Assembly: GCA_031291075.1 (NCBI GenBank)
Contig: JARLJS010000151.1
Location: forward strand, 1 to 64,000
Source: Nevskia sp.
GTDB taxonomy: Bacteria; Pseudomonadota; Gammaproteobacteria; Nevskiales; Nevskiaceae
Direction of reading: 5' to 3'
Length of the DNA: 64,000 nucleotides
A program made the position numbers and the translations under genes. Under the pieces are notes generated by a model. The model was not told the origin of the DNA. It saw only the letters and a program-made list of their open reading frames with translations, and ran no database searches. This document shows positions 17,011 through 33,646 of the stretch, one piece after another; position 1 is the stretch's first letter; every line of letters starts with the position of its first letter.

Positions 17011-17676
17011 GTGAACCGTGCCGCCGCCCTCGCCGTGGGTCTTACAGCCTTCACATCGTTGGCGGCCAAGCCCGATGCCGAAATCGGTGGTTTTGCACTG
17101 CAGAGTCTCACCCGCACTGAGATACGGGAGAGCCCGGTCAATCCCAATGATTTCCTCAGTATTTCACGGGACAGCGAGGAGACGGCTTTGCTTCTGGAAG
17201 GGCAGAAGTTGGGAGTCACCGGCCGGGTCCGCGCTTCCGGAACGGCAAACTTCAATCCGGGATCCAATGCCGCCAAGCATTTCACGATAGAGGAACTCAA
17301 TCGGGTATTTGCAATCGGCGATGACTGGTCGCTATCCATCGGGAATGGACCACGAAATCCCGAGCTTCGTCAGGCGAGACGGAGGATGGGCATGCACGGC
17401 GGGCGACGAGCAACGCCACCGGTAGCGGCAGCTCCGCTCGGTCCCAGCCTTGAATCAATTCAAGGCCTGGCTGGACGGGCAGGGCCAATATCGTGCTGCC
17501 CAAGAGCCTCTGGGCACCGCCATCCGGTACACGCTAAAGAGAGGCCGGTTCCGGCGCGCCTGCTAGCTAGAGCGGTTGGTTCGGCACACCTTCGTACAAT
17601 TGCTCGGTCGGCGCAACGGTCTGCAGATGCAGCAACTTGGTGGCGAGATGTGGCGCGAAGACCGAAAGATAAATGA
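17011..17676 (+). pseudogene. Hypothetical gene remnant, frame lost in its 3' half
   Basis: The first 115 residues or so look protein-like: a short exported-type start (AAALAVGLTAFTSLAAK), then FALQSLTRTEIRESP and KHFTIEELNRVFAIGDDW. GGAGGAG stands just before GTG 17011, but too close for an ideal start. After about 17380 the composition changes and the frame runs through the IS66 remnant and into the 3' end of the AveC-like gene on the other strand, so that part is not real protein. No family recognised; low certainty. Confidence 0.25.
17450..17566 (+). mobile_element. IS66-family TnpC transposase remnant (C-terminus)
   Basis: In frame from 17450 the DNA reads LNQFKAWLDGQGQ and, after a shift of frame and back, VLPKSL then LGTAIRYTLKRG. 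The string F-K-A-W-L-D...V-L-P-K-S-x-L-G-x-A-I-R-Y-x-L is the C-terminal signature of IS66 TnpC. It is broken by at least two frameshifts and stops at 17566, directly beside the stop codon of the AveC-like gene. Confidence 0.65.
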
Positions 17677-18352
17677 CATGGCCGATGACGATGACGGCCG
17701 CAATTGAGAGGAGGGAGGACCGTAGTCGGCCCTTCGATTTTGAATCCGCCCATGCCTCGATGAATGTGCGCCCGACCGAATCAGTTCGTCCGAGAACATA
17801 AGTGATGACCATCATCTGCACGCCCATCGCGAGGGCGTCATAAAGCGGATACTGGTGAGTCGTGCCTGGCCACAGGGCAAGTCCCTCGATGACGCGGCCA
17901 TAGCGCCACACGCCAAGCTGCGCCCCGATGATCGCATTGTTTACGAAAGCCCACAGGCTGCCGACAGCGAGGCCTACAGTCAGCAGCGTGACAGGTGCAC
18001 GCCACTGGAAGCTGGCGTTCAACCAGCGCGCCAGAGCGACGCTTATCACGGCAGGAAAGACGAAATACGCGATGTAACCGGGGGGAACCGCTCGCGGCAG
18101 CCCGCCACCCCATGTCATGTTCAACGGCCACCAGGACGGCATGCGCGGAAGAGCGGGAGGGAACTGTGCATACACCGCCCAATCATAGGGGGCCTCAATC
18201 CAGGAGATTGAGAGGGCGGATATGCACACCAGCAGGAGTGGGTGGGGACGGCCTCGGCGGAAACTCAAAACCAGGCCAACGACCACCAGCAAAAACGCGC
18301 AGGCGTAGCTGGAGTTGAGAGCCGCTTTCGCGATTGGACTTAGTTCAGGCAT
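17567..18352 (-). CDS. AveC-family (spirocyclase-like) integral membrane protein 1
   Basis: The 261-residue hydrophobic protein has about six to seven membrane segments. It shares two sequence motifs with the second AveC-like protein at 27903: W-x-[ED]-x-x-x-[DN]-W-A-x-Y (here WIEAPYDWAVY) and G-T-T-x-Q-[YF]-P-L (here PGTTHQYPLYDA). AveC itself is a dehydratase/spirocyclase in avermectin synthesis, but no polyketide genes are present here, so only membership of the wider family is claimed. ATG 18352 directly follows the stop codon of a 39-aa gene. Its 3' end abuts an IS66 remnant. Last gene of the leftward operon. Confidence 0.7.
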   Translation of the reverse strand: MPELSPIAKAALNSSYACAFLLVVVGLVLSFRRGRPHPLLLVCISALSISWIEAPYDWAVYAQFPPALPRMPSWWPLNMTWGGGLPRAVPPGYIAYFVFPAVISVALARWLNASFQWRAPVTLLTVGLAVGSLWAFVNNAIIGAQLGVWRYGRVIEGLALWPGTTHQYPLYDALAMGVQMMVITYVLGRTDSVGRTFIEAWADSKSKGRLRSSLLSIAAVIVIGHVIYLSVFAPHLATKLLHLQTVAPTEQLYEGVPNQPL

Positions 18353-18472
18353 TTATTGTTGGGCTCCTTTATTCCTTGAAGGACCACGTGCCTCCGGGTC
18401 ATATCGAAGCACCAGGGCGAAGATAAGGACAATCAGTCCGAAAAGCGTGCCAAGCATGATCAATGCGCCCAA
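18353..18472 (-). CDS. 39-aa single-pass membrane peptide (micropeptide C)
   Basis: A short frame from TTG 18472 encodes MGALIMLGTLFGLIVLIF and then ALVLRYDPEARG with a polar tail. One strong membrane helix covers residues 3-22. GGAGG lies 7 bases before the TTG, an excellent ribosome-binding site that decides this unusual start. Its TAA is immediately followed by the ATG of the AveC-like gene, so the two are translationally coupled. It follows the TonB receptor by 63 bp. No family recognised. Confidence 0.65.
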   Translation of the reverse strand: MGALIMLGTLFGLIVLIFALVLRYDPEARGPSRNKGAQQ

Positions 18473-18535
18473 GATGTTTCCTCCAAAGTTTGCTTTGCCG
18501 CGCTTTGCGAAGCGACTGGCGCCCGGAGCGGAGTG

Positions 18536-21253
18536 CTACTCCCCCCATCCGTAGCTGAGTTGGAGACCCAGGATGCGCGGCTCGCCGTAGAGCGAGGACT
18601 GGTAGAACACGGTGTTCCAGACGTTGCTGTTGGCGATGCGGTAGACCCTGTTGGTCAGGTTGGTGCCGTAAAACCGCAGTTCCGCCGCGTGCTTCTCGCC
18701 GAACAGCCGGTCCCAGTTCAAACTGGCGTTGAGCAGCCCCGAGGGGGACAGCCAGGCGGTCGGCTCGGCTTGCGGCACCTCGTAGGTGGAGGAGTACTGG
18801 CGGTCGGTCCAGGCATAGGTGAGGGAGCCGGTGATCCTGCCGCCCGCCACCTCCTGCGGGAGGGTAAAGATGCCGGTGAAACTGGCCTGGTGCTTGGGCA
18901 GGCTGGCGAACGGAATGCAATGAAGGTCCTCGATCGCGGCGCTGGTGTTCTTCCCATCGTTGACCGGGATCAATTGACCGCTACAATCCGGTACCGCGGC
19001 CAGCTCGTTGTTCACCAGGTGATATTGCCGGTACTTGCCATAGTTCAAGGCGTAGTTCGCCGACAGCGTAAGGATGGGGAGCGGGCGCACCGTGCCCTCC
19101 AGCTCCAGGCCGGCCATTTCGGCCTTGCCGGCGGTGAAGGTGGATTCGCCGATGGCTGGCGGAAACCTGGCTTTTCCTCCCGCGCTGTCCGTTGCGTCCC
19201 TCTGCATGTCGCTGTAGTTGGTGTAGTAGGCCGCGGTGTTCAGGCGGGCCGGAGCGTCGCCGATGCGGAAATCGGACTTCTGGCCGACCTCGAAGTTGGT
19301 GACGTATTCCGGCTTGAAGGTATAGTCGGCGGGATTGGCGGCGATCACCTCGAAACCGCCGGCCTTGTAGCCGCGGCTGACCTTGCCGTATAGCAGGGTG
19401 TCTTCGACCTGTTTGTCCAGACCCACCGTCCAGGTCGGCACCGACTTGCCGGTCGATGCGGTGTGCGGTCCGAGGCCCGCGTTGGAGGAACCGGTGGTGT
19501 TGTCGGTGGTATAGCGTGCCCCCAGCGTGAAGTTGTATCCGTCCAAGGCATCGAGCCGCCCGCCCAGGTCGTAAGTGCCCTGCGCATACGGCGCGTACGA
19601 GATTTGCTTGACGGTGTAGATATAAGGCGGCAGGACGAAGAAGAGTCCGGCCGTCGTCTCCTCCTGCATCCCGATCGGCAGGACGCTCTGGTAGTAGACG
19701 CCGGTGGCGAATTTGAGCCGGTTCTCGAGGGCCGCGCCTTGCAGCTGCATTTCCTCGGTGAACTGTCCGGTGTTGGTGGAATATTGGTCGTGCTTGTTGT
19801 TGGTGTAGTTCAGACCCGCATAGGTGCCCGCCAGGTTCCAGTTGTAACTGTGCAGGAGGAAGCTGTAGCTCGTGATGTTGCGCAACGCGATCTGATCGGT
19901 CACGTCGAACTTGAACTGGTCGATGGCGGAACCGGTCTTCACATAATCGTACATCTCGTTCAGATGGCCAAAATCCACCTGGCGAATGCCGCGGGACCGC
20001 TGGGCCGCGAGCAGGTTCTGGCCGCAGTTCGTCGATGGCGCATTGATGTCCATCCACAGGCAGCCGAAATTCAGGGTGTTGGCCAGGGTCTGGAAGCTGG
20101 CGATCTGCTGCTGCGTGGTCGGATTCGGCAGACTCAGCAGCGACGTCGCCTCCTCCAGGATGCCGTAGTTGAGCCCGGGCCTGTTGATGTTTCCCAGAAC
20201 CCAGCCGCTGCCGTTGTCCCTGCTGTCGGTGTAGGACGCGAGGAAGTAGTTGTCGATCCGGTCCGTCGGCTTCCACATGAGTCCGAAGCGGGAGGTCAGG
20301 TAGTGCTTGTTGTCGTAGTCCTCGCCGGTCGCGACATCGTGGGTGAAGCCGCCGCGGCCTACATATTGCGTCGCCAGGCGCATCGTCAGCGTGTTGTCCA
20401 ACAACGGCAGGTTGATGACGTTCTCCACGGTGTCGCCGGAGAACTGGCTATGGTCTTCCTTGATCGAAAACACGTAGCGATCGTCCGGCTTGTGTGGTTC
20501 CAGCAGGAGTGCGCCGCCGGTCGTGTTGCGGCCGAACAGGGTGCCCTGCGACCCTTTCAGCACCTGCAGGTTGGTCAGGTCGAAGAACTTGCCGGGGCCG
20601 CCCTGGCCGCTGGTGATGGTGTGGGATTGCGCCGGCACTTCGGCCATGTAGATCACCACGCCGGGACTGGATCCGAAAGTCGCGCCCTGGCCGCGGATCG
20701 TCGGCAGTTCGGTGTTGCGCGTCTGGCCGAACGCACTGACCGTCAAGGATGGCACCCGCCCTTGCAGGTCCTGGGTGCTGTTGATTTTTTCGCGTTCGAG
20801 ATCGTCGGCCTTGAAGGCGGTGATCGCCGTCGGCACGCTCTGGATGTTTTCCGCCGTCCGCCGGGCGGTGACGACGATTTCTTCGATCTTTTCCGAGCCT
20901 GCTGGTGCTGTGGCCGTCCCGGCCGATTGCTGCGGAACCGGAATGGTGGGTAAGGCCGCGTTTGGCGGGGCCGCCGCGGGCGGTTCCGGGGAGGACGCCT
21001 TGTCCGCGCCTGGCGCGGCGGCCGCAACGGGTTCGGCCGGTTCCGGCTTGTCCGTTGTGGTGGGCGCCGGCGGCGCGGCCAGAAGTTGATCGAGCGATGA
21101 ATCCGCGGCAGGTGGCGCGGAAGCCGCCGGTTGAGCCGGTGCTGTGCCGGCGTCGGGAGCCTTGTTCGCGCCCTGTGCAACAACCGCCAGGGGACATACC
21201 AGCGCCGCGGAGATGCCAATGGACAGGCCAACAGTACCGACCACCTTGTGCAT
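18536..21253 (-). CDS. TonB-dependent outer-membrane receptor with long Pro/Ala-rich N-terminal linker
   Basis: The 905-residue receptor starts at ATG 21253 with GGGAGGAGG upstream. After the signal peptide, residues 27-120 are a Pro/Ala/Thr-rich linker, then the TonB box EKIEEIVVTARR at 121-132. The plug domain follows (VPTAITAFKADDLE, PTIRGQGATFGSSPGV, LQVLKGSQGTLFGRNTTGGALL), then a long beta-barrel ending in LGLQLSYGWGE. The plug with GTLFGRNTTGG is typical of the hydrophobic-substrate receptor group common in sphingomonads and other degraders. In this operon it likely imports the hydrophobic substrate of the P450 and membrane enzyme. It has its own upstream gap, so it may be separately expressed. 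Confidence 0.93.
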   Translation of the reverse strand: MHKVVGTVGLSIGISAALVCPLAVVAQGANKAPDAGTAPAQPAASAPPAADSSLDQLLAAPPAPTTTDKPEPAEPVAAAAPGADKASSPEPPAAAPPNAALPTIPVPQQSAGTATAPAGSEKIEEIVVTARRTAENIQSVPTAITAFKADDLEREKINSTQDLQGRVPSLTVSAFGQTRNTELPTIRGQGATFGSSPGVVIYMAEVPAQSHTITSGQGGPGKFFDLTNLQVLKGSQGTLFGRNTTGGALLLEPHKPDDRYVFSIKEDHSQFSGDTVENVINLPLLDNTLTMRLATQYVGRGGFTHDVATGEDYDNKHYLTSRFGLMWKPTDRIDNYFLASYTDSRDNGSGWVLGNINRPGLNYGILEEATSLLSLPNPTTQQQIASFQTLANTLNFGCLWMDINAPSTNCGQNLLAAQRSRGIRQVDFGHLNEMYDYVKTGSAIDQFKFDVTDQIALRNITSYSFLLHSYNWNLAGTYAGLNYTNNKHDQYSTNTGQFTEEMQLQGAALENRLKFATGVYYQSVLPIGMQEETTAGLFFVLPPYIYTVKQISYAPYAQGTYDLGGRLDALDGYNFTLGARYTTDNTTGSSNAGLGPHTASTGKSVPTWTVGLDKQVEDTLLYGKVSRGYKAGGFEVIAANPADYTFKPEYVTNFEVGQKSDFRIGDAPARLNTAAYYTNYSDMQRDATDSAGGKARFPPAIGESTFTAGKAEMAGLELEGTVRPLPILTLSANYALNYGKYRQYHLVNNELAAVPDCSGQLIPVNDGKNTSAAIEDLHCIPFASLPKHQASFTGIFTLPQEVAGGRITGSLTYAWTDRQYSSTYEVPQAEPTAWLSPSGLLNASLNWDRLFGEKHAAELRFYGTNLTNRVYRIANSNVWNTVFYQSSLYGEPRILGLQLSYGWGE

Positions 21254-21404
21254 CGTTGCCTCCTCCCGCTCTTCGCTTTTTAGTGCTTATCCTTGCTGTC
21301 ATCGCCGCGGGACGAGGCTCGGGGCCACCGCGCGGGCCGCGGCGGCGAGCTTTCGTTTCTGCAGCTTCTCCTCCCAAATCCTTGTCAAGTCGGACGCTGG
21401 CGGT

Positions 21405-21421
21405 ATCCCGGATTCCGGGAT
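21405..21421. promoter_or_regulatory. Perfect palindrome upstream of the TonB receptor
   Basis: ATCCCGGATTCCGGGAT is a perfect dyad of 8-bp arms around one base, about 150 bp before the receptor start and 57 bp past the preceding gene. The one-base centre makes a terminator hairpin unlikely; an operator is more plausible. Confidence 0.4.
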
Positions 21422-21477
21422 CGGGGAACCATGCGTTCGGGCTGCACCACGCCATCCGCCCGGTCCGGATGAGCCGA

Positions 21478-21825: not shown

Positions 21826-21862
21826 TTTCTCCCCCCGGTTGCTGCGAAGATCTCACCGGCCA

Positions 21863-23113
21863 TCACACGTCCCAGACCAGGTGAATGCTTGACGGTCCCG
21901 CGATGATGCTGCCGTGAAATGTTGGCGGGTGGTCCGGGTCCAGACGGAACTCCGGCAATTTGTTCAATATCGTTTCGTACATGATCTTGAGTTCCAGCCG
22001 GGCCAGGTGGGAGCCCAGGCAGATGTGCGGTCCGGTTCCGAACGCCAGGTGCGAGAGTCTTTCGCGCCGTATATCGAACACGGTGGGATGGGGGTAGATG
22101 CTCGCGTCCACGCTCGCGCTTGGAATGAACATCATGACCCGCTCGCCTTCCTTCAACTGCACGCCGTGGAACACGTAATCCTTTTTCATGATGCGGATCG
22201 GTGCGACAAAGGAATAACGGCGCAGTATTTCTTCCGAGGCGCTGGGAATAAGCTCCGGATTTGCGCGCAACTCCCGTTGCAGAGCGGCGTCCAGCGCCAG
22301 ATGACGCACGCCGAATCCGAGCGCGTTTACCACGGTGTCGAGTCCGGCGATGAAGAGGATGACGCAGTAGCTCAGCATGAGATCGAGGGTCATCGGCGCG
22401 CCGTCGATTTCGAGCGACCACAGCAGGCTGATGATGTCGTTCCTGCGATTGTCCTGGCGCTCGATAATCGTCTCGCGCATGACCGTGGCGATGCTCTTCA
22501 TCATGATCATGTTTTCGGCAAGATCCGGTGAAATCACCGACAAGTGCCTTTTCGCCAGTTCCCGGTACTCCCGTTCCTTTTCGACGGGAAGACCGAACAT
22601 GCCCAGGAATATCTCCACGGGATATATGTCGGACACCTCGTGTTGAAATTCGCATCGGCCTGTCCCCGCGATCCTGTCGATGAGACGCTCGGCAAGCGCG
22701 CGGATTTCCCCTTCGCGGGCCGACACCGATTTCGGCGAAAATGTCGAATACAGGGGGTGGCGAAGCCTTGCGTGCAGTGGCGGATCGATGCAAATGGGGA
22801 CGGGGGCGGGTATGCGCTCCTCCTCCGGCAGGGCCACCATCATCGAGGCAAATGCCTCCGGCGAAAAATGCTCGCTGGAGAACGCCTGGTAGTCGCGAAG
22901 GGCATCGGCCACCGCTCCATATGCCTGGAACATCCAATGGCCGCCGTTGAATGGCGTCCAGAATATCGGCGGCGCATTCCTGGCCAGGTCGGCGGCCCGG
23001 GCGTGCGGGTCTTTGCAGTATTCGGCGTCCTTGTTGTAGTCGAACTCATAAACAAGGGAGTCCGTGACGTGGGCCGGCCGTCTCACCTTGTTGGCCATAG
23101 CGGCACTATTCAT
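21863..23113 (-). CDS. Cytochrome P450 (class I bacterial type)
   Basis: The 416-residue soluble P450 has I-helix ILFIAGLDTVVNA (oxygen-activating A-G-x-D-T), the K-helix ExxR in SEEILRRYS, and heme loop FGTGPHICLGSHLARLE with the cysteine ligand. Length and lack of a membrane anchor fit class I enzymes that need ferredoxin and ferredoxin reductase; neither is encoded nearby (the closest ferredoxin is at 53655). ATG 23113 has GGAG upstream; ATG 23098 is an alternative. It follows the membrane-protein genes in the operon and probably hydroxylates the imported substrate or an intermediate. Confidence 0.94.
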   Translation of the reverse strand: MNSAAMANKVRRPAHVTDSLVYEFDYNKDAEYCKDPHARAADLARNAPPIFWTPFNGGHWMFQAYGAVADALRDYQAFSSEHFSPEAFASMMVALPEEERIPAPVPICIDPPLHARLRHPLYSTFSPKSVSAREGEIRALAERLIDRIAGTGRCEFQHEVSDIYPVEIFLGMFGLPVEKEREYRELAKRHLSVISPDLAENMIMMKSIATVMRETIIERQDNRRNDIISLLWSLEIDGAPMTLDLMLSYCVILFIAGLDTVVNALGFGVRHLALDAALQRELRANPELIPSASEEILRRYSFVAPIRIMKKDYVFHGVQLKEGERVMMFIPSASVDASIYPHPTVFDIRRERLSHLAFGTGPHICLGSHLARLELKIMYETILNKLPEFRLDPDHPPTFHGSIIAGPSSIHLVWDV

Positions 23114-23153: not shown

Positions 23154-23585
23154 TCAGGGCGACGGTCTTGCAGCTGGACGCGCCCCGGCATCGGTCTTGG
23201 TGGCCGCGGCCTGGCGGGCCAGCCTCTCGTCGCGGAACTTGACGAGGTCGCGGAAGCCGATGCGCTTGTACTGCGGCGTTGGCTGGATGCCCCAGATGTC
23301 TTTGGCCGTCGTCTGGCCCGCTCCCTCGGACGGACCGAACAGCGGGTAGGGGTACAGGCATTCACGCGTATCGTCCGAATACCGCACCTTTTCCAATTCA
23401 CTGCAGATGTCTACCAGCGACAACGTCGGCCATCCCATCCAGACCATCAGGAAGGGGACCGTAAACGTTCCCTCGATGACCAGCGCCGTCAGGCAGACGA
23501 ACAGTCCGCGCTGGAGCCATTTGTGCATGGTGGCGAATGGCGCCGTGGTGCCAAGCGGCAGGCTAATTTCGGCAGAGTTCTTCAT
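23154..23585 (-). CDS. One-helix membrane protein with extracytoplasmic domain, unknown family
   Basis: The 143-residue product has one hydrophobic helix at about residues 24-48 ([20 protein letters not shown] then LMVWMGW), followed by a soluble domain. That domain holds two cysteines 18 residues apart (DICSEL ... [11 protein letters not shown]) and a basic, Ala-rich tail. The layout, anchor then domain, resembles small accessory or electron-transfer subunits of membrane oxidases, but no known metal motif is seen. GAGGA precedes ATG 23585. It lies 34 bp after the five-helix protein, suggesting the two form a complex. Confidence 0.65.
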
Positions 23586-23619: not shown

Positions 23620-24321
23620 TCAGTCCGAGAAGATCTCGCGATTCACCGTGTGCAGGTAAGGAATCGAGAGGAATGGGGTGATGTAGAAGATGTCGTAGAG
23701 CCACCATCCCCACACCGGGAACGTCACGTGTGCGTAGCGGACATCGGCGAAAATGGTCATGTTGGTGTTGTAGCCGACCCATACGATAAGACCCATCCAG
23801 CAGGTGACGATCAGCCACTGCTGGCCCCAACGCTTCATCTGCAGGAAGCCGATGGCCGCAGCCAGGCGCGCGCAGAACACGACGGGTATGAGGGCGATTT
23901 CCCAGGCCTTCTCGCCCGGCGCGCCGGCGCCGCCGAGCCAGAGCTCGTTGTAGTGCCAGAAGTAACCGCCATCCACCATGGCTCCCCAGGAGGTGGTGAT
24001 GACGCGGTTGATCAAGGTGTGGTTCGCGATGAGGTCCAGGGTCCAGCCGATGCTGTTCAGGGCCGAATCGATGATGACCAGGTAGCCGATCAGGGTGACG
24101 ATGAGCGGGCGGACTGAAAGCCCTGCCTTGGCCGCCTCTTTCTGGAGCCACAATCCCCTGAGAAAGAGAGGGAAGCCGATGAAGCCGAGGATCGCGGTGC
24201 CCATCAGGAGCGTTCCCGCGATCATCCATTTATCGGCTCGCCGTTGAGCGTCGGAGCTGGTGTTCTGGTGCGCATCGTAGGCGCCAAACGCGCCGGAGGT
24301 CTGTTGAGCTCTTGTGGCCAT
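23620..24321 (-). CDS. Five-helix integral membrane protein, unknown family
   Basis: The 233-residue protein has a polar N-terminus followed by about five membrane segments: near 33-53 ([18 protein letters not shown]), 72-92 ([20 protein letters not shown]), 140-158, 167-187 ([18 protein letters not shown]) and 198-220 ([20 protein letters not shown]). Loops hold conserved-looking polar and aromatic residues ([24 protein letters not shown]) that include His and Glu and might bind a metal. Not recognised. It starts 6 bp after the stop of the 44-aa membrane peptide and lies directly downstream of a MoxR/VWA pair, the position a client metalloenzyme would take. Confidence 0.65.
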
Positions 24322-24327: not shown

Positions 24328-24462
24328 CTACCAGTCGCGAGTGGAATACATGTGCAGCTGGAGCAGGAACAACCCCAGCAGATAGCCGTAAATGAGAATC
24401 TGAAAGACGATCAGCGCCTTCTTGCGCCGGCGGTCTTGATCGGAAATGGACTTGTCGTTCAC
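24328..24462 (-). CDS. 44-aa single-pass membrane peptide (micropeptide B)
   Basis: GTG 24462 starts a short frame reading VNDKSISDQDRRRKKALIVF and then QILIYGYLLGLFLLQLHMYSTRDW. The charged N-terminus and one membrane helix (about residues 16-36) predict an N-in topology. A perfect AGGAGG lies 8 bases upstream, inside the end of the MoxR gene, whose stop codon is one base away. The stop lies 6 bp before the five-helix protein. This tight packing strongly supports a real gene. No family recognised. Confidence 0.75.
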   Translation of the reverse strand: MNDKSISDQDRRRKKALIVFQILIYGYLLGLFLLQLHMYSTRDW

Positions 24463-25304: not shown

Positions 25305-26840
25305 CTAGGCGGCCACCAGCTCGCGATGGACGCGGGCCAGGACCCCTGGGAGATCTTCCACCCGCTTGATTCGCGTCGAGCGGCGGGGACCGAAGACGTC
25401 AGGAAGGGGATCCACCCGCGTCTGCCCGACCCCGATGTAATAGACCGAGACCGCGGCATCGTCGGCCTCCTCCACCGCATGAGCTGCATCGGCCCACGCG
25501 TATCTGCCCTCGTAGCCCTCGTCCGATATGAGGCCGTCGCCGATGACGATGAGCAGGCGCCGTTCCGATGGCTGTTCGAGCAGTCGGCTGGTCAGGTGCC
25601 GCAACGGAGCGCCCAGCCTCGTGTAGCCGCCGGTGGCGAGGCCCAGATCGCTCGGCACAACGGCGTGGGTGTGTTTGAAGTCCTTGAGACAGGTCACGTC
25701 CACCCGATGCCGGGTCTTGCCGTTGAAGACAAACAGGCCGTGGCGTTCCCGGGCCAGGGACATGGCACGGCACAGCGCATCGGCACAGGCGAGCTCCAGC
25801 TCGAAGATCCGGCCGTTGCTGGCTCCCAGGGAGGCGCTGCCATCGAGTAGAAGCGCCGTGGTGACGTCGCGGAGTCCGGGCTGCAGATCCCTGAACACCC
25901 GGGCTTCCGAAGCCTTGCCGGTCAATCTGTCGACATGGAACTCGATGTAGCGGTCGATATCGAGGTCGGATCCGTCCTCAAGGCGGCTCTTCATGACCCG
26001 ATGAGTGTGTTCCTCGAACCAGCGACGCAAGTCCGCAGGGACAGGCCCGGCGGGCTTCGCAGTGGGTGCCCGCCCACGTTCGAGAACGGCGACATGATCG
26101 GGAAGAAATTTCTTCGTCCAAAGATTCCATTCCGGGTAGGGAATGCCCGCACGCCGGTCGGAACGAATCTCGATGTCGTCATCCTCGGGACGGCTTGGAG
26201 GCGGCAGGCGCGAGCTTCGAATATTGCTTTCGCCGCCGACCGGGACCGTGTCGAACTCTGGCGAGAGGTAGCGCCTGGTCTTCGACCATGGCATGCGCGC
26301 CTGCGCCCTTCGAAGGGCTTGGAGCAGCCCACCCTTGGGCTGCATGCCCAGCGGCAGTTGCCCGAGCAAGGGATGGCAATGCAGCTCCCGCGTGGACCGT
26401 GCGAGGGCCATCGCGCGGTCCAGTATGGCGGGACCATCGAGATCGTCGTCGTGCATCTCGAAATCGGGCAGGAGGCGCCGAAACTCCGGTAGAAGGCCGG
26501 GCCAGCGTGAGCCGACCCAGCCGAGCGCAACTCCTCCTTCGACGATCGAAAGCGCCTTGATTTGCCGGGGAGACAGTGCCGCCAGCGTATACGCGGCGAT
26601 ACGGCTCTTGGACGGCGAGCACTGCATCGCGATCCCGCAGGTCCAGGTCCGCAGTGTCCAGTCCGGGGCGATCGCAGGGTAGGGGACATTCACCACGGTT
26701 CGTCCGGCGTTCATGCCGAAGCTGCGACGCTCGCCTGACATCAGGCGGACGATTTCGCAGCGCCCCGCCGAGAGCGCGGTTGCCACCACGGCGCAAGCGC
26801 GTTCGACCCCGAGCGCGTGGCCATTGCCGGAGGAATTCAT
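25305..26840 (-). CDS. VWA-domain protein 1 (NorD/CbbO-like partner of MoxR)
   Basis: The 511-residue protein has a helical N-terminal half (YTLAALSPRQIKALSIVEGG), a mid-region GIPYPEWNLWTKKFLPDHV that parallels the Y-P-E-W-D motif of NorD, and a C-terminal von Willebrand A domain. The metal-adhesion site is complete: LLLDGSASLG (D-x-S-x-S), the threonine in GGYTRLGAPLRHL, and VIGDGLISDEGYEGRYAW. The ATG at 26840 is preferred to an upstream one because GGAG-like bases precede it. It lies 25 bp after micropeptide A and just before MoxR 1, the order seen for chaperone pairs. Confidence 0.88.
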   Translation of the reverse strand: MNSSGNGHALGVERACAVVATALSAGRCEIVRLMSGERRSFGMNAGRTVVNVPYPAIAPDWTLRTWTCGIAMQCSPSKSRIAAYTLAALSPRQIKALSIVEGGVALGWVGSRWPGLLPEFRRLLPDFEMHDDDLDGPAILDRAMALARSTRELHCHPLLGQLPLGMQPKGGLLQALRRAQARMPWSKTRRYLSPEFDTVPVGGESNIRSSRLPPPSRPEDDDIEIRSDRRAGIPYPEWNLWTKKFLPDHVAVLERGRAPTAKPAGPVPADLRRWFEEHTHRVMKSRLEDGSDLDIDRYIEFHVDRLTGKASEARVFRDLQPGLRDVTTALLLDGSASLGASNGRIFELELACADALCRAMSLARERHGLFVFNGKTRHRVDVTCLKDFKHTHAVVPSDLGLATGGYTRLGAPLRHLTSRLLEQPSERRLLIVIGDGLISDEGYEGRYAWADAAHAVEEADDAAVSVYYIGVGQTRVDPLPDVFGPRRSTRIKRVEDLPGVLARVHRELVAA

Positions 26841-26865
26841 CGCCTTGCCGCTCCGCACGCGGGGG

Positions 26866-26964
26866 CTAGAAGGTTCCAACCGAATCCATGAACCAGTACC
26901 AGAAGACGATGATCACGCCGGCAAGCCCGAACGCGGCGGCAAGACGCAAGATGTCCAGAAGCAT
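26866..26964 (-). CDS. 32-aa single-pass membrane peptide (micropeptide A)
   Basis: ATG 26964 begins MLLDILRLAAAFGLAGVIIV followed by FWYWFMDSVGTF and TAG. Nearly the whole peptide is one membrane helix with an aromatic end. GGAGGG stands 7 bases upstream, an ideal ribosome-binding site. It is the first gene of the leftward operon, 25 bp before VWA 1. A longer in-frame start exists but runs through the control region with poor protein character. No family recognised. Confidence 0.7.
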   Translation of the reverse strand: MLLDILRLAAAFGLAGVIIVFWYWFMDSVGTF

Positions 26965-27049: not shown

Positions 27050-27106
27050 CAACACTGTTGATTTACTGCGATCGAAATTCTACTTGCGCGCAAGTTGAAA
27101 TTCAAC
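27050..27106. promoter_or_regulatory. Operator cluster between the two operons
   Basis: Three dyads lie within 60 bp between micropeptide A and the divergent tetR gene: CAACACTGTTG (27050-27060), ACTTGCGCGCAAGT (27082-27095, perfect 14-bp palindrome) and GTTGAAATTCAAC (27094-27106). They are good candidates for binding by the adjacent TetR protein and would control both operons at once. The stretch is also locally AT-rich, as expected for divergent promoters. Confidence 0.6.
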
Positions 27107-27176: not shown

Positions 27177-27839
27177 GTGATCAATTTGGCTGCCCCTGAA
27201 CCTAGCGGTGCCAAGGCCGAGCGAAGCCGGTCGACCATTCTTGCCGCCGCCGAGGAATTGTTTGCGACGCGCGGCTACGCGGCTGCCCGCCTGGAGGATG
27301 TGGCGGATGCGGTAGGTCTGACCCGCGCCGCGCTTTTTTATTATTTCCGCGACAAGCAGTCGCTCTACGACGCGATGCTCAAGAATGCGTTTGCGTCACT
27401 GACCACACAGCTCAAGGACGTGCTGGCGGGAAAAGGGACCATCGCGCAGCGCATCGAGCTGGCTGTGGAGGCCTGGGTGGACGCGATCGTGGCCCGTCCG
27501 TCCCTTGCCCGGCTGATCCTTCGTTACGTCGCGGATGCGAAGGAGCAACCGCCGCAGCACATGCTTCCCGACAACATCCTTCTGAATTTCTGGTCCCTCT
27601 TCGAGCAAGGACGCAGGAGCGGAGAGCTTCGACCGGTCAGCGACGATCCGTTTCACGTTGCGAGCGCCATCATCGGGACCACGGTTTTCTACGTATCCGG
27701 ACTGGCCACCTTGATACCGCAAGGCGAGTTCGAGCCCTTGGATCCAAAGCAGGTGGCGGCTCACAAGCGGGAAGCGGTGTTTGCAGCACGACATCTGCTG
27801 GGCATTCCGCACGGCCGGCAGGCCGTGAGCAAAAAGTAG
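27177..27839 (+). CDS. TetR-family regulator of the divergent operons
   Basis: The 220-residue protein has N-terminal domain RSTILAAAEELFATRGYAAARLEDVADAVGLTRAALFYYFRDKQSLYDAML, a textbook TetR helix-turn-helix. The C-terminal domain (LARLILRYVADAKEQPPQHM ... FHVASAIIGTTVFYVSGLATL) is of the ligand-binding TetR_C type often found with fatty-acid or terpenoid catabolism genes. GTG 27177 is the likely start. The operator cluster just upstream and its central place between the two arms make it the probable cluster regulator. Confidence 0.9.
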   Translation: MINLAAPEPSGAKAERSRSTILAAAEELFATRGYAAARLEDVADAVGLTRAALFYYFRDKQSLYDAMLKNAFASLTTQLKDVLAGKGTIAQRIELAVEAWVDAIVARPSLARLILRYVADAKEQPPQHMLPDNILLNFWSLFEQGRRSGELRPVSDDPFHVASAIIGTTVFYVSGLATLIPQGEFEPLDPKQVAAHKREAVFAARHLLGIPHGRQAVSKK

Positions 27840-27902
27840 CCGTTTAAACCAGGAGAGAGCCGGTTTCAGCCGGCCGTTATCAACGCACTGGAGTGAGCAG
27901 GG

Positions 27903-29021
27903 ATGTCGAATCGTATCGATGCCAATGTGGCGTCTTCCGACAAAGCTTCGGCGACGTGGATGTGGGGGCCGATCTGCCTGGCTGTTATCGGCGTGATTGC
28001 CCATTTCGCGCGCGAGGGTGCCGTATCGCCACGCATTGCGAATCCGGAAGTGACGGGGGTTCCCCGCCCGGTCGAGTTCCTGTTCGGTTTCGGTCATTGG
28101 GTGGAGTTCCACCAATACCTGACCGTGGTGGCGATGGTTGCCCTCCTGGTGATTTGTATCACAGCCTGGCGACGTAATCCGGGGCATCCGTACGTGCTGA
28201 TGGCAATAGCCTCGACAGCGATCGTCTGGCAGGACCCGGTCATGAACTGGGCTCCCTATGCGGTCTACAACCCGCAGCTCTGGCATTGGCCGGAAGACTG
28301 GCCCCTCGTGACGCTGTCGCCTACGGTCGAGCCCTTCATCGTGGTTGGGTATGCGTTGTTCTATTTCGGACCTTATTTCCCCGCCGTCTGGGTTCTAAGA
28401 CGCTTGCAGGCCAGACGGCCGATGGACGCATTCGTCTGGCGGAGGCCGTTGCTGAGCCTGGCCGCCTTGATCCTGGTATTCGGGTTCGTCATCGATATGC
28501 TGCTCGAGGTGACGCTGGTCCGCACCGGGCTCTACGTCTATTCGCAGGTGATTCCCTGGGGTTCGCTGTTTGCGGGAACCACCTTTCAGTTTCCGCTGAT
28601 CTGGGAGTCCACATTTGTCACGTTCGTGATGATCCCGGCGGGCGTGCTCTGCTACCGGGACGATACCGGTCGCACGGTGGCCGAAAAGCTGGCGCAAAGA
28701 CTTCGCATATTTCAGTCGCGTCCGGTCCTGGCCACATTCCTGGTCATGTTCGGCATCGTCAACATCGCCTATTTCATGTACGGCGCGGCCTTCGCCGCCA
28801 TCCGTGCCAGCGGCGTCGCCACGGCAGTGGCCTGCCCCTATCCATACCCGGAAGCCAAAGTCTACGACCCGCAGGGCTTCTACGAGCGGGAGGGACAGCC
28901 CGGTCCCTACTTCGGGGGACGCTGGGATACATGGATGACGGGCCAGCCCGGCGGGCGGCCGCAGGCGAACCCGCTCAAGGAAAACGCCGGCTGTCTGCCG
29001 GCGAGAGTGTCCGGTGCGTAG
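27903..29021 (+). CDS. AveC-family (spirocyclase-like) integral membrane protein 2
   Basis: The 372-residue membrane protein has about seven hydrophobic segments, starting with WMWGPICLAVIGVIAHFA. It shares with the protein at 17567 the motifs W-x-[ED]-x-x-x-[DN]-W-A-x-Y (VWQDPVMNWAPY) and G-T-T-x-Q-[YF]-P-L (FAGTTFQFPLIWE). A W-rich loop lies between them (LWHWPEDWPLVTLSPTVEP). The C-terminus is soluble and rich in Pro, Tyr and Gly (AVACPYPYPEAKVYDPQGFY). Homologues in actinobacteria are annotated as spirocyclase AveC family; the chemistry here is unknown. Its stop overlaps the start of the SDR fusion by 8 bp. Confidence 0.8.
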   Translation: MSNRIDANVASSDKASATWMWGPICLAVIGVIAHFAREGAVSPRIANPEVTGVPRPVEFLFGFGHWVEFHQYLTVVAMVALLVICITAWRRNPGHPYVLMAIASTAIVWQDPVMNWAPYAVYNPQLWHWPEDWPLVTLSPTVEPFIVVGYALFYFGPYFPAVWVLRRLQARRPMDAFVWRRPLLSLAALILVFGFVIDMLLEVTLVRTGLYVYSQVIPWGSLFAGTTFQFPLIWESTFVTFVMIPAGVLCYRDDTGRTVAEKLAQRLRIFQSRPVLATFLVMFGIVNIAYFMYGAAFAAIRASGVATAVACPYPYPEAKVYDPQGFYEREGQPGPYFGGRWDTWMTGQPGGRPQANPLKENAGCLPARVSGA

Positions 29022-31095
29022 CGTCGTCATCACGGGCGCGTCGCGAGGTCTCGGTCTCGCCTCCGCGACGTACCTGTATCAACAGGGCTGGCGTGTCGTT
29101 GCGGCGATGCGCTCGGTCGATGCGGGTCTTGCACGGCTGCGCGCTTCAAGCGGGGCGCCAGTCGACGATCCGCGCCTGATCGGAGTGAAGCTGGACCTGA
29201 CGGATCCGGCCTCGATCCCGGCCGCCGCCCGGGCTATCGAGGCCGCCGTGGGTGCCCCGGATGTGGTCGTGCATAACGCGGGCGTCGCCGCATTTGCCGG
29301 TGTGGAAGAAACCCCGGACCAAGTCTGGGAGCAGCTGTTCGCAACCAATCTGTTCGGGCCCGTCGCACTCACCAAGGCCTTGCTGCCGGCCATGCGCACA
29401 AGAGGGCGTGGTCGCATTGTCGCGATATCAAGCGCAGGCGCTATCCGAGGCATGCCCGGCATCAGTGCCTACTCGGCGTCCAAGGGAGCGATTGAACGTT
29501 GGGCCGAAGCGCTGTCGCAGGAAATCGCACCGTTCGGACTCGGCGTCACGATCCTGGTCACCGGGACGTTCAACACCGACATCCTGACGGAGCAGACGCC
29601 GGACTACGGCGATCACAATGGCCCATACGCGTCGCTCTACCAGGGAATTCACAGCACGGGCAAAGCGGCGGTGAGCAAGGCCAGTCCGCCTGCGCGCTTT
29701 GCCCGCGCGTTGGCGGCGGCATTGGAAGACGAAGCGCCCATCGCGCGCCGAACCGTCGGAGCCGACGCGGCGGCACTCGCATTCATGGCCCGGCTGCTTC
29801 CGGGCTGGCTCGTGCATCAGATCATTCGAGTGGCGATGCGCATTCCCCGCAAGGGCGCACTGCATACGGGATCGCAGGGCCTGGTGACCGTGCAGGCGTC
29901 CGGTGCGCCTGCCGGGGGCGCCGGGCGAAAGATCGACTTCGTGGATCAGGTTGTCATCGTCAGCGGCGCCGGTCGAGGTCTCGGCCGGCTGTATGCGCTT
30001 GAGTTTGCGCGGCGCGGCGCGGCGGTCGTCGTCAACGATCTGGGTGGCTCCATGCACGGCGAGGGCGCGGATGCCGGCGTGGCCGATCAGGTCGTCGAGG
30101 AAATCAGGCGCGAGGGCGGCAGGGCCGTTGCCTCTCACGACTCGGTGGCCAGCCCGGAGGGCGGAGAGGCCATCGTTCGCAGGGCAGTAGAGGAGTTCGG
30201 GCGCCTCGACGCCGTCGTCAGCAATGCCGGGATCTTCGGCTCCGTCGACTTCGAAATGCTGACAGCCGAGGAGTGGCGGCGTATGTTGAATGTTCACCTC
30301 GACGGTAGCTTCTTCCTGAGCCAACCCGCGTTTCGCGTGATGAAATCACAAGGCTACGGCCGTTTCGTCTTCACCTCGTCGTCCGCGGGAATGTTCGGGC
30401 AGCCACAGGAAGCACACTACGCCGCCGCCAAGGCCGGGGTCGTCGGACTGTCGAACGTCATCGCAATCGAGGGCGAGGCCTGCGGTATCAAGGCCAACTG
30501 CGTCCTGCCGTTCGGGCACTCGCGGATGGTGACCGAGACCGTGGGCGGCGACGATGCCGCCGCGCAGTTCCCGTTCCTGCAACTGATCGACCCCAAGTTC
30601 GTCGTGCCCATGGTGGTCTTCCTGGCGAGTCGTACCTGTGAGCTGACCCATCACAATTACTCGACCGGAGCGGGTCGTTATGCCCGCGTCTTCGTCGGAC
30701 TTGGCGAAGGCTGGCTCGCGGCACCGGGGAGCGAGCCGACGGCGGAGGACATCGCGGGGAATCTCGACGAGGTGTCGGCGACCCAGCCCTTCACGGTCCC
30801 CTCGTCGATCGTTGACGAGGTCATGCAGATCAGCTTGCGGCGGGGCTTGGGCCAGGGCGGCGCACCTGGCAACGAGGCCGAGACGCGATTCACCGCGGAG
30901 ACCAGGCTTGCCGCGATTCTGGACGACCCGAAGGCCAAAGCCGTCATGGCGAAGCACTATCCCGAGATCGCGAACGCGGGCCCGCTGTTGCGGATGGGAC
31001 GCGGCCTGACGCTCAGGCAAATCTCCGCCTTTCCGCAGGCGAAGATGCCGCCCGAGCGGTTGCAGACGATCGTCGACGATCTCCAGAAGCTTTAG
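29014..31095 (+). CDS. Double short-chain dehydrogenase fusion protein
   Basis: The 693-residue protein contains two complete SDR domains. Domain 1 (about 1-280) has VVITGASRGLGLASATYLYQ, VHNAGVA, and catalytic Ser with YSASK. Domain 2 (about 307-560) has VVIVSGAGRGLGRLYALEFA, VVVNDLGGSMHGEGADA, SNAGIFG and SSSAGMFGQPQEAHYAAAK, and resembles the (3R)-hydroxyacyl-CoA dehydrogenase domain of multifunctional enzyme type 2. A 110-residue C-terminal extension (ETRFTAETRLAAILDDPKAKAV ... MPPERLQTIVDDL) follows. GTG 29014 overlaps the end of the AveC-like gene. Both active sites look intact, so two sequential oxidoreductions are possible. Confidence 0.9.
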   Translation: MRSVVITGASRGLGLASATYLYQQGWRVVAAMRSVDAGLARLRASSGAPVDDPRLIGVKLDLTDPASIPAAARAIEAAVGAPDVVVHNAGVAAFAGVEETPDQVWEQLFATNLFGPVALTKALLPAMRTRGRGRIVAISSAGAIRGMPGISAYSASKGAIERWAEALSQEIAPFGLGVTILVTGTFNTDILTEQTPDYGDHNGPYASLYQGIHSTGKAAVSKASPPARFARALAAALEDEAPIARRTVGADAAALAFMARLLPGWLVHQIIRVAMRIPRKGALHTGSQGLVTVQASGAPAGGAGRKIDFVDQVVIVSGAGRGLGRLYALEFARRGAAVVVNDLGGSMHGEGADAGVADQVVEEIRREGGRAVASHDSVASPEGGEAIVRRAVEEFGRLDAVVSNAGIFGSVDFEMLTAEEWRRMLNVHLDGSFFLSQPAFRVMKSQGYGRFVFTSSSAGMFGQPQEAHYAAAKAGVVGLSNVIAIEGEACGIKANCVLPFGHSRMVTETVGGDDAAAQFPFLQLIDPKFVVPMVVFLASRTCELTHHNYSTGAGRYARVFVGLGEGWLAAPGSEPTAEDIAGNLDEVSATQPFTVPSSIVDEVMQISLRRGLGQGGAPGNEAETRFTAETRLAAILDDPKAKAVMAKHYPEIANAGPLLRMGRGLTLRQISAFPQAKMPPERLQTIVDDLQKL

Positions 31096-31109
31096 CCGGC
31101 TTGGACGAC

Positions 31110-32783
31110 ATGGCGCAAGGCGAAAGCATTTCTCGGCTGGGAATGCTGGCGTCAGCTCTCTCCGGCCGGGATATTGCCATCGACCACGCCGCTGCCGGCA
31201 TGCCGGCGTGGACGAATGGAGCGGTGATCTTTGTCAGCGGCGCCGCCGACGTCCAGACGCAGATCAAGGAACTTTGCGTTCAAAGCGCTCTGCTCGCGGC
31301 AGGCAGTCTGGACAGGGAGCTTGTACAGCGCCTGGCGCGGCGGCCGGAACTGTCCAGGCGATATCTGGCCGTCGAAGGGGCCCGCGTGTTGGCGGCACTG
31401 GAGCGCGTGTTGCCCCCGTTGATGCTCCCGCTCATCGACCACTCGATGGCATCTTTCTCAAAATCACCGGTGACGTCGCTGCATATTGCCCTGAGCCGGG
31501 AAGGTATCGAAGATCCACCGCCGGTGTTCGGGTCGATCCGGGTACGGGAACTGCTGGCTGCACGGCCTCGTGCCGGAGAGGTGGCTTCTCCCGGCTTGCA
31601 TATCGCGCGTGAGCGGCGGGACAAAGAGCTTGCCGAACTGGCTCATGATGCAGATCAGGACGGCCAGGATGCCGAAGATGTTGCCACCAGCCCGGTGGGT
31701 GGCGGCGGGGGGCTGGGCCGGCTGCTGCAGAAGATGTTCCAGGTGGTACGGCAGCTCAAGGGTGGCGGACCTCCGGGCGCCGATGCCCCGACGCACTGGT
31801 CCCGGTCGAGGCCGCGAGGCGGCGTGCGTTCCCTGCCTTCCACGGCAACCGCCGAAGCGGTCGCCGACGTGCTTGGCGCAAGCTGCGGAATCCTGTATCC
31901 GGAGTGGGATGTCCATCGGCATTGCTACCGGCCCGAGTGGTGCACCGTGAAGGAAGTGGACGCGCCGATGGACCAGCATGCATCGGTGGAGTGGCTGGAG
32001 TGGTATGGATGGCGGCGCCCGCTCGCGCGCCTGGGAATGGGCTTCGACCGCCTTCGTGGCCAGGCCCAGGGTGACGACGTCGACATCGATGCCGCGGTCG
32101 AGGCGCAAGTGCAGCTGCTGGCGGGTACGGTGCCGGACGAAGCTACTTATGTGGAGAGCCGGCGGCATCGGCGCGACCTGTCGGTGCTGATCCTGCTGGA
32201 CATATCGGGTTCCGTCAGGCAGACCAGCCCGGCGGGCCGCGACGTTCACCAGCAGCAACGCGAGGTCGCTGCCGGGCTCGCCACGGTGCTGCATGAAATC
32301 GGGGATCGCGTAGCCCTGTATGCATTCCACTCGCAGGGGCGATCGGCGGTTCACCTGGTTCCGGTCAAGCGTTTCGACGATGGGCTGGACAGCCTGGTCA
32401 TGCGCAGGCTCCACAGCCTCGTCCCCGGCGCTTATTCGAGGCTGGGCGCCGCGATTCGCCATGGGGCCACGGTGTTGATGGAGCGCGGTGGAACATCGAG
32501 GCGATTGCTGTTGGTGCTTTCCGATGGGCTTGCCTATGACCATGGCTATGAACCTGCATACGGCGCGGCGGATGCGCGACAGGCCCTGGCGGAGGCCCGC
32601 CGCGACGGAGTCGGGTGCCTGTGCCTGAGCGTCGGTGCGAACACGGACGCTGAATCGTTGGGACGGGTGTTCGGAAGTGCCGCGCACGCCATCATCCACA
32701 GGGCCGACCAGCTTGATCTGCTGATCGGCCCGCTCTTCCGCCTGGCCCTGCGAAGCGCGGAGCTAAGGCGTCGGGCTGCATGA
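31110..32783 (+). CDS. VWA-domain protein 2 (NorD/CbbO-like)
   Basis: The product has about 557 residues from ATG 31110; TTG 31101 is an alternative start. A helical N-terminal part is followed by an acidic stretch (HDADQDGQDAED), a Gly-rich loop and the NorD-like motif GILYPEWDVHRHCYRPEWC. The C-terminal VWA domain has a complete metal site: LILLDISGSV (D-x-S-x-S), YSRLGAAIRHG and LVLSDGLAYDHGYEPAYG. It is paralogous to VWA 1 (25305) but clearly diverged. It overlaps MoxR 2 by ATGA, so the two are translationally coupled. Confidence 0.9.
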   Translation: MAQGESISRLGMLASALSGRDIAIDHAAAGMPAWTNGAVIFVSGAADVQTQIKELCVQSALLAAGSLDRELVQRLARRPELSRRYLAVEGARVLAALERVLPPLMLPLIDHSMASFSKSPVTSLHIALSREGIEDPPPVFGSIRVRELLAARPRAGEVASPGLHIARERRDKELAELAHDADQDGQDAEDVATSPVGGGGGLGRLLQKMFQVVRQLKGGGPPGADAPTHWSRSRPRGGVRSLPSTATAEAVADVLGASCGILYPEWDVHRHCYRPEWCTVKEVDAPMDQHASVEWLEWYGWRRPLARLGMGFDRLRGQAQGDDVDIDAAVEAQVQLLAGTVPDEATYVESRRHRRDLSVLILLDISGSVRQTSPAGRDVHQQQREVAAGLATVLHEIGDRVALYAFHSQGRSAVHLVPVKRFDDGLDSLVMRRLHSLVPGAYSRLGAAIRHGATVLMERGGTSRRLLLVLSDGLAYDHGYEPAYGAADARQALAEARRDGVGCLCLSVGANTDAESLGRVFGSAAHAIIHRADQLDLLIGPLFRLALRSAELRRRAA

Positions 32784-33646
32784 ACATCGGAGGTCCCAGC
32801 CACCCCATGGCACCACACAACCACGATGCGAGTATCCGCGGCATGCAAGATCACATTCGGCCGTATTACGTTGCGGTGGCGAATGAAGAGCGGGTATTCA
32901 AGGCGGCCTTTCAGCAGGGGCTTTCGATCCTGCTCAAGGGGCCGACCGGTTGCGGCAAAACCCGCTTCGTCGAGGCCATGGCCCATGACCTGGACAGGCC
33001 GCTCATTACTGTCGCCTGCCACGACGATCTGACCACCGCCGATCTGGTCGGGCGTTTCCTGCTGCAGGGCGGCGAGACGAAGTGGGTGGACGGCCCGCTG
33101 ACCAGGGCGGTACGCGAAGGTGCCATCTGCTACCTCGACGAGGTTGTGGAGGCCAGGCAGGACACGACCGTCGTGCTCCATCCTTTGGCGGACTACCGTC
33201 GCCAGCTGCCGCTCGAGCGCCTGGGGGAAACCTTGGCGGCCGCGCCGGGATTTTGCCTCGTCGTCTCCTACAACCCGGGCTATCAGAGCGTGCTCAAGGA
33301 TCTCAAGGATTCCACTCGTCAGCGCATGGTGGCCATTGAATTCGGCTTTCCGGCACCCGACGTGGAGGAAAGAATCGTCGTGAACGAGGCTGGCGTCAGC
33401 CTTGAACAAGCCGCGAATCTGGTCCGCCTGGGACAGGCCATCCGCCGGCTCGAGGGCGGAGGGTTGCGCGAGGTCGCATCCACCAGGGTGCTGATCGCCG
33501 CCGGCCGGCTGGTCGCCGAAGGCTTGACGCCTGCCGAAGCTGCCCGGGCTGCGATCGCGGGACCGCTGACCGACGACGCACAGCTCACCAGCGGCCTGGC
33601 CGGGATGATCGACGTCTACCTGGGCAGCCAGGCGGGTTCCGCCTGA
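32780..33646 (+). CDS. MoxR/NorQ/CbbQ-type AAA+ ATPase 2
   Basis: The 288-residue AAA+ protein has Walker A GPTGCGKT (54-61), Walker B ICYLDE, and the same signature as MoxR 1: ACHDDLTTADLVGRFLLQGG and DGPLTRAVREGAICYLDE, then VVSYNPGYQSVLKDLKDSTRQR. It starts within the VWA 2 stop codon and is the last gene of the rightward arm, converging with the acyl-CoA ligase 12 bp away. A second, separate MoxR/VWA pair in one cluster suggests either two clients or a specialised two-step maturation. Confidence 0.93.
   Translation: MNIGGPSHPMAPHNHDASIRGMQDHIRPYYVAVANEERVFKAAFQQGLSILLKGPTGCGKTRFVEAMAHDLDRPLITVACHDDLTTADLVGRFLLQGGETKWVDGPLTRAVREGAICYLDEVVEARQDTTVVLHPLADYRRQLPLERLGETLAAAPGFCLVVSYNPGYQSVLKDLKDSTRQRMVAIEFGFPAPDVEERIVVNEAGVSLEQAANLVRLGQAIRRLEGGGLREVASTRVLIAAGRLVAEGLTPAEAARAAIAGPLTDDAQLTSGLAGMIDVYLGSQAGSA

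Follow-up and report, generated by a model that had tools for sequence, protein, structure and literature searches.

Twin MoxR/VWA gene pairs in a Nevskia sp. locus and their candidate membrane clients

Which proteins are served by the two MoxR/VWA chaperone pairs encoded side by side in a Nevskia sp. genome? Chaperones of this kind have few well-studied clients. The window analysed here is a stretch of 64,000 nucleotides (positions 1–64000 of contig JARLJS010000151.1, in a genome of 5.65 Mb and 302 contigs). It carries two divergent operons, each of which holds a MoxR-type ATPase and a VWA protein, as had been predicted from the letters alone and as confirmed by Pfam for both pairs. The reading favoured here, with a probability of roughly 55%, is that the first pair (MoxR1/VWA1) would mature an undescribed membrane complex and the second (MoxR2/VWA2) AveC-like proteins, in a stretch that lies beside catabolic genes.

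The membrane quartet and its chaperone pair

The operon on the minus strand runs in the order p32, vwa1, moxR1, p44, m233, sm143, followed by genes for a cytochrome P450, a TonB receptor and AveC1. Its first six genes are the following.

26866–26964, minus strand: p32, one-helix membrane peptide of 32 residues (MLLDILRL...FWYWFMDSVGTF), first gene of the operon
25305–26840, minus strand: VWA1, NorD-like VWA protein (PF00092; NorD match)
24464–25288, minus strand: MoxR1, NorQ/CbbQ-type AAA+ ATPase with CbbQ_C (PF07728, PF08406; NorQ match)
24328–24462, minus strand: p44, one-helix membrane peptide of 44 residues with a GTG start
23620–24321, minus strand: m233, polytopic all-helical membrane protein of 233 residues (no Pfam, NCBIfam or PDB match)
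23154–23585, minus strand: sm143, 143 residues with one membrane helix and an outer part, with invariant C61 and C76

All genes named in the original prediction were found in place, and their families were assigned by Pfam. The three membrane proteins that it had placed beside the chaperones are indeed there, but the membrane parts are four, p32 having been overlooked.

The association between quartet and chaperones was examined by searching the same genomes for m233 and for MoxR1. A match was counted as MoxR1-type at 74% identity or more, the next best matches in the samples reaching at most 52%. Among 200 genomes of the Mycobacteriales (the order of Mycobacterium celatum, host of locus L029), m233 was present in 16, and among the matches listed at E ≤ 1e-60, with the best 12 first-look candidates scored per genome, a MoxR1-type ATPase (74–82% identity) occurred in exactly those 16 and in 0 of the 184 others. 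Four further Mycobacteriales genomes held a MoxR of the 47–50% type only. Within 85 genomes of the window's order the result was the same: m233 in 6, belonging to four genera, MoxR1-type (79–100%) in exactly those 6 and in 0/79 others, and a 44–52% type only in ten further genomes. The split is therefore clean, owing to the identity gap between the MoxR types. The naive odds of such co-occurrence are 6e-24 and 2e-9, respectively, values which are inflated by kinship. The question raised by the original prediction, whether these membrane proteins always travel with this type of MoxR/VWA, thus finds exact co-occurrence in two samples. Homologues widespread without MoxR/VWA genes were not found, the plasmid homologue of Mycobacterium branderi described below being the main exception.

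A scan of species genomes gave 343 relatives of m233. From the best-scoring 80, which biases the set to close relatives, 78 loci were fetched; with the window they make 79. Their hosts, some of which are bacteria of soil and water, are Nevskiaceae, other Gammaproteobacteria, one Myxococcales metagenome-assembled genome and many actinobacteria (Mycobacterium, Mycolicibacterium, Mycolicibacter, Nocardia, Rhodococcus and Aldersonia). The block p32-vwa1-moxR1-p44-m233-sm143 was found intact on one strand in 73 of the 79 loci, in Pseudomonadota, Actinomycetota and the Myxococcales genome, and a chance association is therefore ruled out. Two loci are partial, namely L075, on a contig of 6.6 kb, and L084. 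In five of the six genomes whose locus is without an adjacent pair, a moxR1 that is 72–81% identical lies elsewhere; L027, L028, L045 and L046 are among these.

In samples drawn from the class and the phylum of the window's genome (274 and 398 genomes), no convincing m233 was found besides that genome's own; one weak match of 68 residues (G442) was seen in the 274-genome sample. Since the species scan found members in other Gammaproteobacteria, these samples indicate rarity and not absence. A match to m233 was also obtained in 11 of 396 Actinomycetota genomes. Eight of them were already known and one, G678, is new, being the only clear distant case; the weak partial matches in G654 (E 7.6e-4) and G762 (E 2.5e-4) were discounted as noise.

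A tree of MoxR proteins was built from 60 of 113 rows (58 different), comprising all 39 that are not m233-linked MoxR1 and 21 of the 74 that are. The 21 m233-linked MoxR1 rows fall on one branch with support 100/99. On its other side stand the AveC-linked, COX1-linked and unassigned rows together with a MoxR2 row, L021_5406, whose m233 label is by proximity only. L134 is labelled "other" though an AveC gene adjoins it, and L140/L027 and L141/L028 are the same loci entered twice. The exact position of the deep member L219 is unsure because of its long branch. The original prediction had named the uncharacterised membrane proteins as partner of the chaperones. For MoxR1/VWA1 this is borne out by the co-occurrence, the six-gene block and the separate MoxR1 branch, and pair and quartet are very probably one functional unit.

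The pair itself resembles a known machine. MoxR1, searched with positions 24464–25285 and its start methionine excluded, matched PF07728 (E 1.8e-35) and PF08406 (E 2.7e-21); MoxR2 likewise carries AAA_5 and CbbQ_C. The Walker A motif G-P-T-G-C-G-K-T and Walker B D-E are kept in at least 97% of 73 MoxR1 sequences. Among solved structures, MoxR1 matched NorQ (9qh4, E 2.3e-76 over residues 5–254) and CbbQ (6l1q, E 9.2e-66); giant Midasin entries, with two matched stretches each, ranked slightly above them. Residues 217–511 of VWA1 matched residues 341–646 of NorD (9qhd, E 2.6e-32), its only solved relative, and the MIDAS pattern DxSxS-T-D (D333, S335, S337, T407, D435) is kept in at least 97% of 71 sequences. 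For the N-terminal part of VWA1, about 211–216 residues, neither a solved relative at E 0.1 nor a NorD match was found. NorQD is required for iron insertion into a membrane enzyme (PMC13036017, PMC9976466) and is a case for which a structural understanding now exists (PMC13036017). A NorD-like C-terminal half joined to a distinct N-terminal half fits VWA1 as a putative adaptor to a different client. A role of the system in defence is unsupported: in PADLOC, MoxR1 and MoxR2 gave weak IetA/RtcR ATPase matches only.

The quartet shows no known Pfam family, as zero matches were obtained for m233, sm143, p44 and p32. The machine is of a known kind and the client is new. The two larger proteins, which were the ones sent to NCBIfam and PADLOC, matched nothing there either, and 85 m233 relatives searched against Pfam gave scattered chance matches only. 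AlphaFold2 predicted m233 as all-helical (pLDDT 69.6, pTM 0.65) and sm143 as one helix, its extramembrane part showing little packing (pLDDT 79.9, pTM 0.40). In profile searches of solved structures, nothing matched the m233 alignment up to E 10, and sm143 had three matches, all at chance level. Foldseek and VIA searches with the m233 model returned background only, with no Foldseek match at E < 1, and for the sm143 model VIA reached a best Z of 2.1 among 2 chains compared. The profile and structure searches that the original prediction had proposed as a check thus gave no match to a transporter or to any other family; for the fold search, made with a model of middling quality, this is weak evidence.

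In 120 of 120 distinct m233 sequences, D85, N89, D96, H101, D117, H123, N125, E137, K138, R152, K163 and R195 are invariant, and E126 is kept in 119. The only fully conserved histidines are H101, H123 and H224 (H18 is present in 116). A conserved loop spans residues 96–138. For p32, the set holds 57 distinct sequences including the window's; R7, F21 W22 Y23 W24 and the final T31 F32 are kept in at least 97% of 56 distinct copies. In many mycobacterial loci a second m233 lies just upstream of p32, and in L050, L052 and L059, for example, two m233 paralogues flank p32-vwa1-moxR1-p44. In such mycobacterial loci, two distinct m233 chains may be present in one complex.

Two deep variants were found. 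In G678, m233, VWA and MoxR genes adjoin, with identities of 39% for m233, 34% for vwa1 and 56% for moxR1. By reading of an alignment, a short open reading frame (ORF) with FGTF at its end resembles p32, and the one-helix ORF that follows resembles sm143; their tblastn scores are weak (E 6.7 and 0.014). On plasmid NZ_AP022607.1 of M. branderi, an m233 homologue of about 35% identity follows a 40-residue peptide and an 82-residue protein, the latter, by the same kind of reading, aligning with sm143 through its second helix and looking p32-like in its first. This arrangement hints that p32 and sm143 may touch each other. Six m233 sequences that include both deep variants keep D85, N89, D96, D117, N125, E137 and K138, and a histidine is retained in them at position 100 or 101.

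A second module around AveC-like proteins

The remaining features of the two operons are listed below. The plus-strand operon is ordered tetR, aveC2, double SDR, vwa2, moxR2.

17567–18352, minus strand: AveC1, AveC-like membrane protein (PF17198, about 240 bits)
18536–21253, minus strand: TonB-dependent receptor for uptake (PF07715, TonB plug)
21863–23113, minus strand: cytochrome P450 (Pfam), a recurring neighbour downstream of sm143
27074–27103, no strand: near-palindrome of 30 bp between the divergent operons, GAAATTCTACTTGCGCGCAAGTTGAAATTC
27177–27839, plus strand: TetR-family regulator (PF00440)
27903–29021, plus strand: AveC2, AveC-like membrane protein (PF17198)
29014–31095, plus strand: double SDR dehydrogenase (PF00106, two stretches)
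31101–32783, plus strand: VWA2 (PF00092)
32780–33646, plus strand: MoxR2, CbbQ/NorQ-type ATPase with CbbQ_C, of the AveC-linked type

AveC1 and AveC2 both match PF17198, with 240.1 and 236.7 bits against a cut-off of 26.6. The AveC family is known from avermectin biosynthesis, and no MoxR2/VWA2-like partners are known in the avermectin cluster. An AveC-like gene was found in 22 of 30 regions around genes of the MoxR2 type (47–51%), the 30 being all 13 MoxR matches of 47–51% from seven genomes and 17 from genomes without m233. The 22 include L140 and L141, which are identical with loci L027 and L028. By the same approach, a COX1-family (NorB-like) gene, the expected partner of a true NorQ, was found next to MoxR in L142, L202 and L211. 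The original prediction had both pairs serving one set of clients. This part does not seem to hold, as MoxR2/VWA2 goes with AveC-like proteins, and the two chaperone pairs probably serve two different membrane proteins.

For seven of the eight MoxR2-type regions without AveC, all but L209, one or two neighbouring ORFs were scanned. NorQ-like MoxR/VWA pairs without a recognised NorB, AveC-like or m233 neighbour were seen in L197, L204, L206, L209 and L213, of which L209 groups with L211 in the MoxR tree. Within m233 loci, an AveC-like gene is present in the window, L021–L028 and L037, and none was detected in the fetched actinobacterial m233 loci. In L130–L139 and others, AveC-like genes occur in two or more MoxR-linked arrangements (vwa-moxR-aveC-SDR and aveC-moxR-vwa), which suggests several AveC-dependent pathways in these actinobacterial genomes. 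That m233 and the AveC-like proteins form one family was rejected on a profile–profile probability of 9%. A profile search of solved structures with AveC2 gave no match up to E 1.

In the literature, searches by title and abstract found none that describes the m233 complex. One study lists, without interpretation, accessory coding sequences of a single M. avium paratuberculosis isolate that include a spirocyclase, a P450, an SDR, a TetR and CbbQ/NirQ (PMC10876796).

Control region and genomic setting

A palindrome-rich control region beside the TetR gene had been predicted, and the near-palindrome at 27074–27103 is present; it is likely the operator of the TetR regulator. The region was compared in nine relatives, with approximate bounds for four. 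Related ACTTGCG/CGCAAGT palindromes lie between tetR and p32 in L025, L026, L028 and L037. The second palindrome of the window (...GTTGAAATTCAACTGGCG) recurs in L020, that of L015 is a different one, and none was obtained in L017, L018 and L019.

The window's genes were also scanned for known clients. As the original prediction had stated, no NO reductase, Rubisco, CO dehydrogenase or methanol dehydrogenase is among those scanned; some ORFs of the window and the rest of the genome were not searched. To the right of the operons lie genes for a Rieske oxygenase, acyl-CoA dehydrogenases, an enoyl-CoA hydratase, an acyl-CoA ligase, a CoA-transferase and a second P450. The best match of an FAD enzyme at 51885–53615 is the model of 3-ketosteroid-delta-1-dehydrogenase (KstD), below its cut-off. 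From these family matches, the right-hand genes look like a putative pathway that breaks down a cyclic compound, possibly a steroid-like one.

The G+C content of 17567–33646 is 63.2%, against 67.2% for 1–13200 and 67.4% for 33650–64000. Because of this lower G+C content than on both sides, the two operons look acquired, and the right-hand catabolic genes look like the rest. To the left, a tRNA-Pro gene occupies 13213–13289 and an inverted second copy of its 3' end lies at about 14888. Short ORFs at 13393–14118 and 15026–15790 are integrase-like pieces by reading of their translations, and an AAA_15 ORF is found at 15292–16224. This part of the window (13213–17566; G+C 62.2%) is likely an integration site. 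Its features and the patchy spread of the system (6/85 genomes) fit horizontal acquisition, and the stretch was probably acquired in this way. Farther left, RND-type efflux genes (HlyD, AcrB and OEP) and, in their midst, a gene for an FMN oxidoreductase occupy 4670–11978, adjoined by a TetR gene at 3862–4530.

Proposed mechanism, alternatives and known systems

In the proposed mechanism, m233, sm143, p44 and p32 would form an inner-membrane complex with m233 as its core. MoxR1 would form an ATPase ring, and VWA1 would serve as adaptor, its NorD-like C-terminal half docking on the ring and its N-terminal half, unlike that of NorD, recognising the new complex. If the pair works as NorQD does, twisting of VWA1 powered by ATP could open the membrane subunit so that a metal ion is placed at conserved Asp, His, Asn and Glu residues of m233. 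The finished complex would probably oxidise, or activate in some other way, a hydrophobic compound, cyclic or lipid, that the TonB receptor takes up, and the P450, SDR, Rieske, acyl-CoA ligase and beta-oxidation-type enzymes would process the product further. MoxR2/VWA2 would do the same for the AveC-like proteins, and TetR with the 30-bp palindrome may switch both operons.

Several observations weigh against this picture. Four loci (L027, L028, L045 and L046) have the quartet without MoxR/VWA within the distance limits; the genome of L084, where vwa1 runs to the end of the locus, has MoxR matches of 47–48% and weaker only; and no MoxR1 match was found on the 864-kb plasmid record of M. branderi, the chromosome of which was not searched. 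The extra mycobacterial m233 comes without its own p44 or sm143, and the outer part of sm143 is absent from the sm143-like protein of both deep variants. The KstD-like and acyl-CoA ligase matches lie below curated cut-offs, the m233 model is of middling quality, and MoxR1 has a further match, at 72 bits and well short of the cut-off of 267, to GvpN, which is a gas vesicle protein and not a metalloenzyme factor. Finally, H123 is replaced by Asp and E126 by Ala in G678, which still has MoxR/VWA, and by Asn and Arg in M. branderi. These two residues are therefore not universal ligands. A candidate metal site among the conserved residues of m233 is plausible.

Some of these points would be expected if MoxR1/VWA1 assembled or remodelled the quartet without any metal, in the manner of RavA-ViaA or GvpN, the quartet being a lipid or substrate transporter, a channel or a structural complex. 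The weak GvpN score, the small one-helix nature of three of the four subunits and the loss of H123 and E126 in the deep variants agree with this alternative. Against it, NorQ and CbbQ are, after Midasin, the best solved relatives of MoxR1, and NorD is the only one of VWA1; the deep variants, too, keep the charged residues D85, D96, D117 and E137; and searches of Pfam and NCBIfam with m233 and sm143, and Foldseek with m233, gave no transporter family. It is considered rather unlikely. Less probable still is that the quartet is, like the sterol isomerase EBP, a membrane isomerase or cyclase that needs no metal and acts on hydrophobic cyclic compounds, with MoxR/VWA serving in assembly only. The neighbourhood resembles cyclic-compound catabolism, and EBP tied as the best VIA match of m233 (Z 8.5, root-mean-square deviation 4.2, 173 aligned), but this Z lies at the tool's background level for helical proteins, the unrelated tetraspanin CD53 ties with it, and the Foldseek E-value for EBP is 7.2. 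The EBP profile PF05241 found nothing in M. celatum, which has two m233 genes, and matched in 0 of 149 genomes; none of 85 m233 members matched it. That the client is a neighbouring enzyme such as the P450, with the quartet as its membrane electron carrier or anchor only, is very improbable: by one tblastn query, in loci some of which end early, a P450 lies within 2.5 kb downstream of sm143 in 23/79 loci and anywhere in 40/79, so that 56/79 are without the former, against 73/79 where the quartet is kept with MoxR1/VWA1, and P450 haem insertion is not known to need MoxR/VWA.

Maturation of the quartet by MoxR1/VWA1 is thus retained as the preferred reading. Reasoning from NorQD, it is moderately probable that the m233 complex is a metalloenzyme. 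That it is an oxygenase is somewhat doubtful. It is tentatively proposed that the quartet could be a new class of membrane metalloenzyme, most likely an oxidase or oxygenase using O2 on hydrophobic substrates, with its metal put in by a dedicated NorQD-type machine, and the AveC-like proteins a second, so far unsuspected and metal-dependent, class of clients of the same kind of machine. A NorQD-like machine is tied here, genome for genome and in two samples, to membrane proteins without a Pfam model; if their complex holds metal, it would be a new membrane enzyme class. Comparison of VWA1 with NorD would show how the N-terminal half of the adaptor picks its client, and the link of MoxR2/VWA2 to AveC leads to a testable prediction on a protein family known from avermectin.

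Among known systems, the copper membrane monooxygenases pMMO and AMO are, in a general way, also multi-subunit membrane complexes. They differ in that no AMO, AmoC or Monooxygenase_B Pfam match was found for m233 (85 members) or the window's sm143, and in the presence of MoxR/VWA here. The AlkB and membrane fatty-acid desaturase signature has eight or more conserved histidines, against three fully conserved ones in m233, which gave no FA_desaturase match. Neither copper monooxygenases nor AlkB appear in the structure-match lists of m233, absence from a fold list being no exclusion. CbbQ/CbbO, the Rubisco activase, has its ATPase family (CbbQ_C) in common with MoxR1; there is no Rubisco among the scanned window genes, the partner being a group of membrane proteins instead. 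NorQ/NorD with NorCB is alike in combining a CbbQ/NorQ-type ATPase with a VWA protein of conserved MIDAS, both encoded next to membrane proteins, one of them a single-helix subunit that has an outer part. In the window, however, the partner is m233/sm143/p44/p32, no COX1/NorB match was found by Pfam for the neighbours of either pair, the N-terminal 216 or so residues of VWA1 lack a NorD match, and MoxR1 branches apart from the NorB-linked MoxRs. The AveC spirocyclase family, finally, is matched by AveC1 and AveC2 through PF17198, and is set apart here in that its relatives adjoin MoxR2/VWA2-type pairs in most of the regions compared (22/30).

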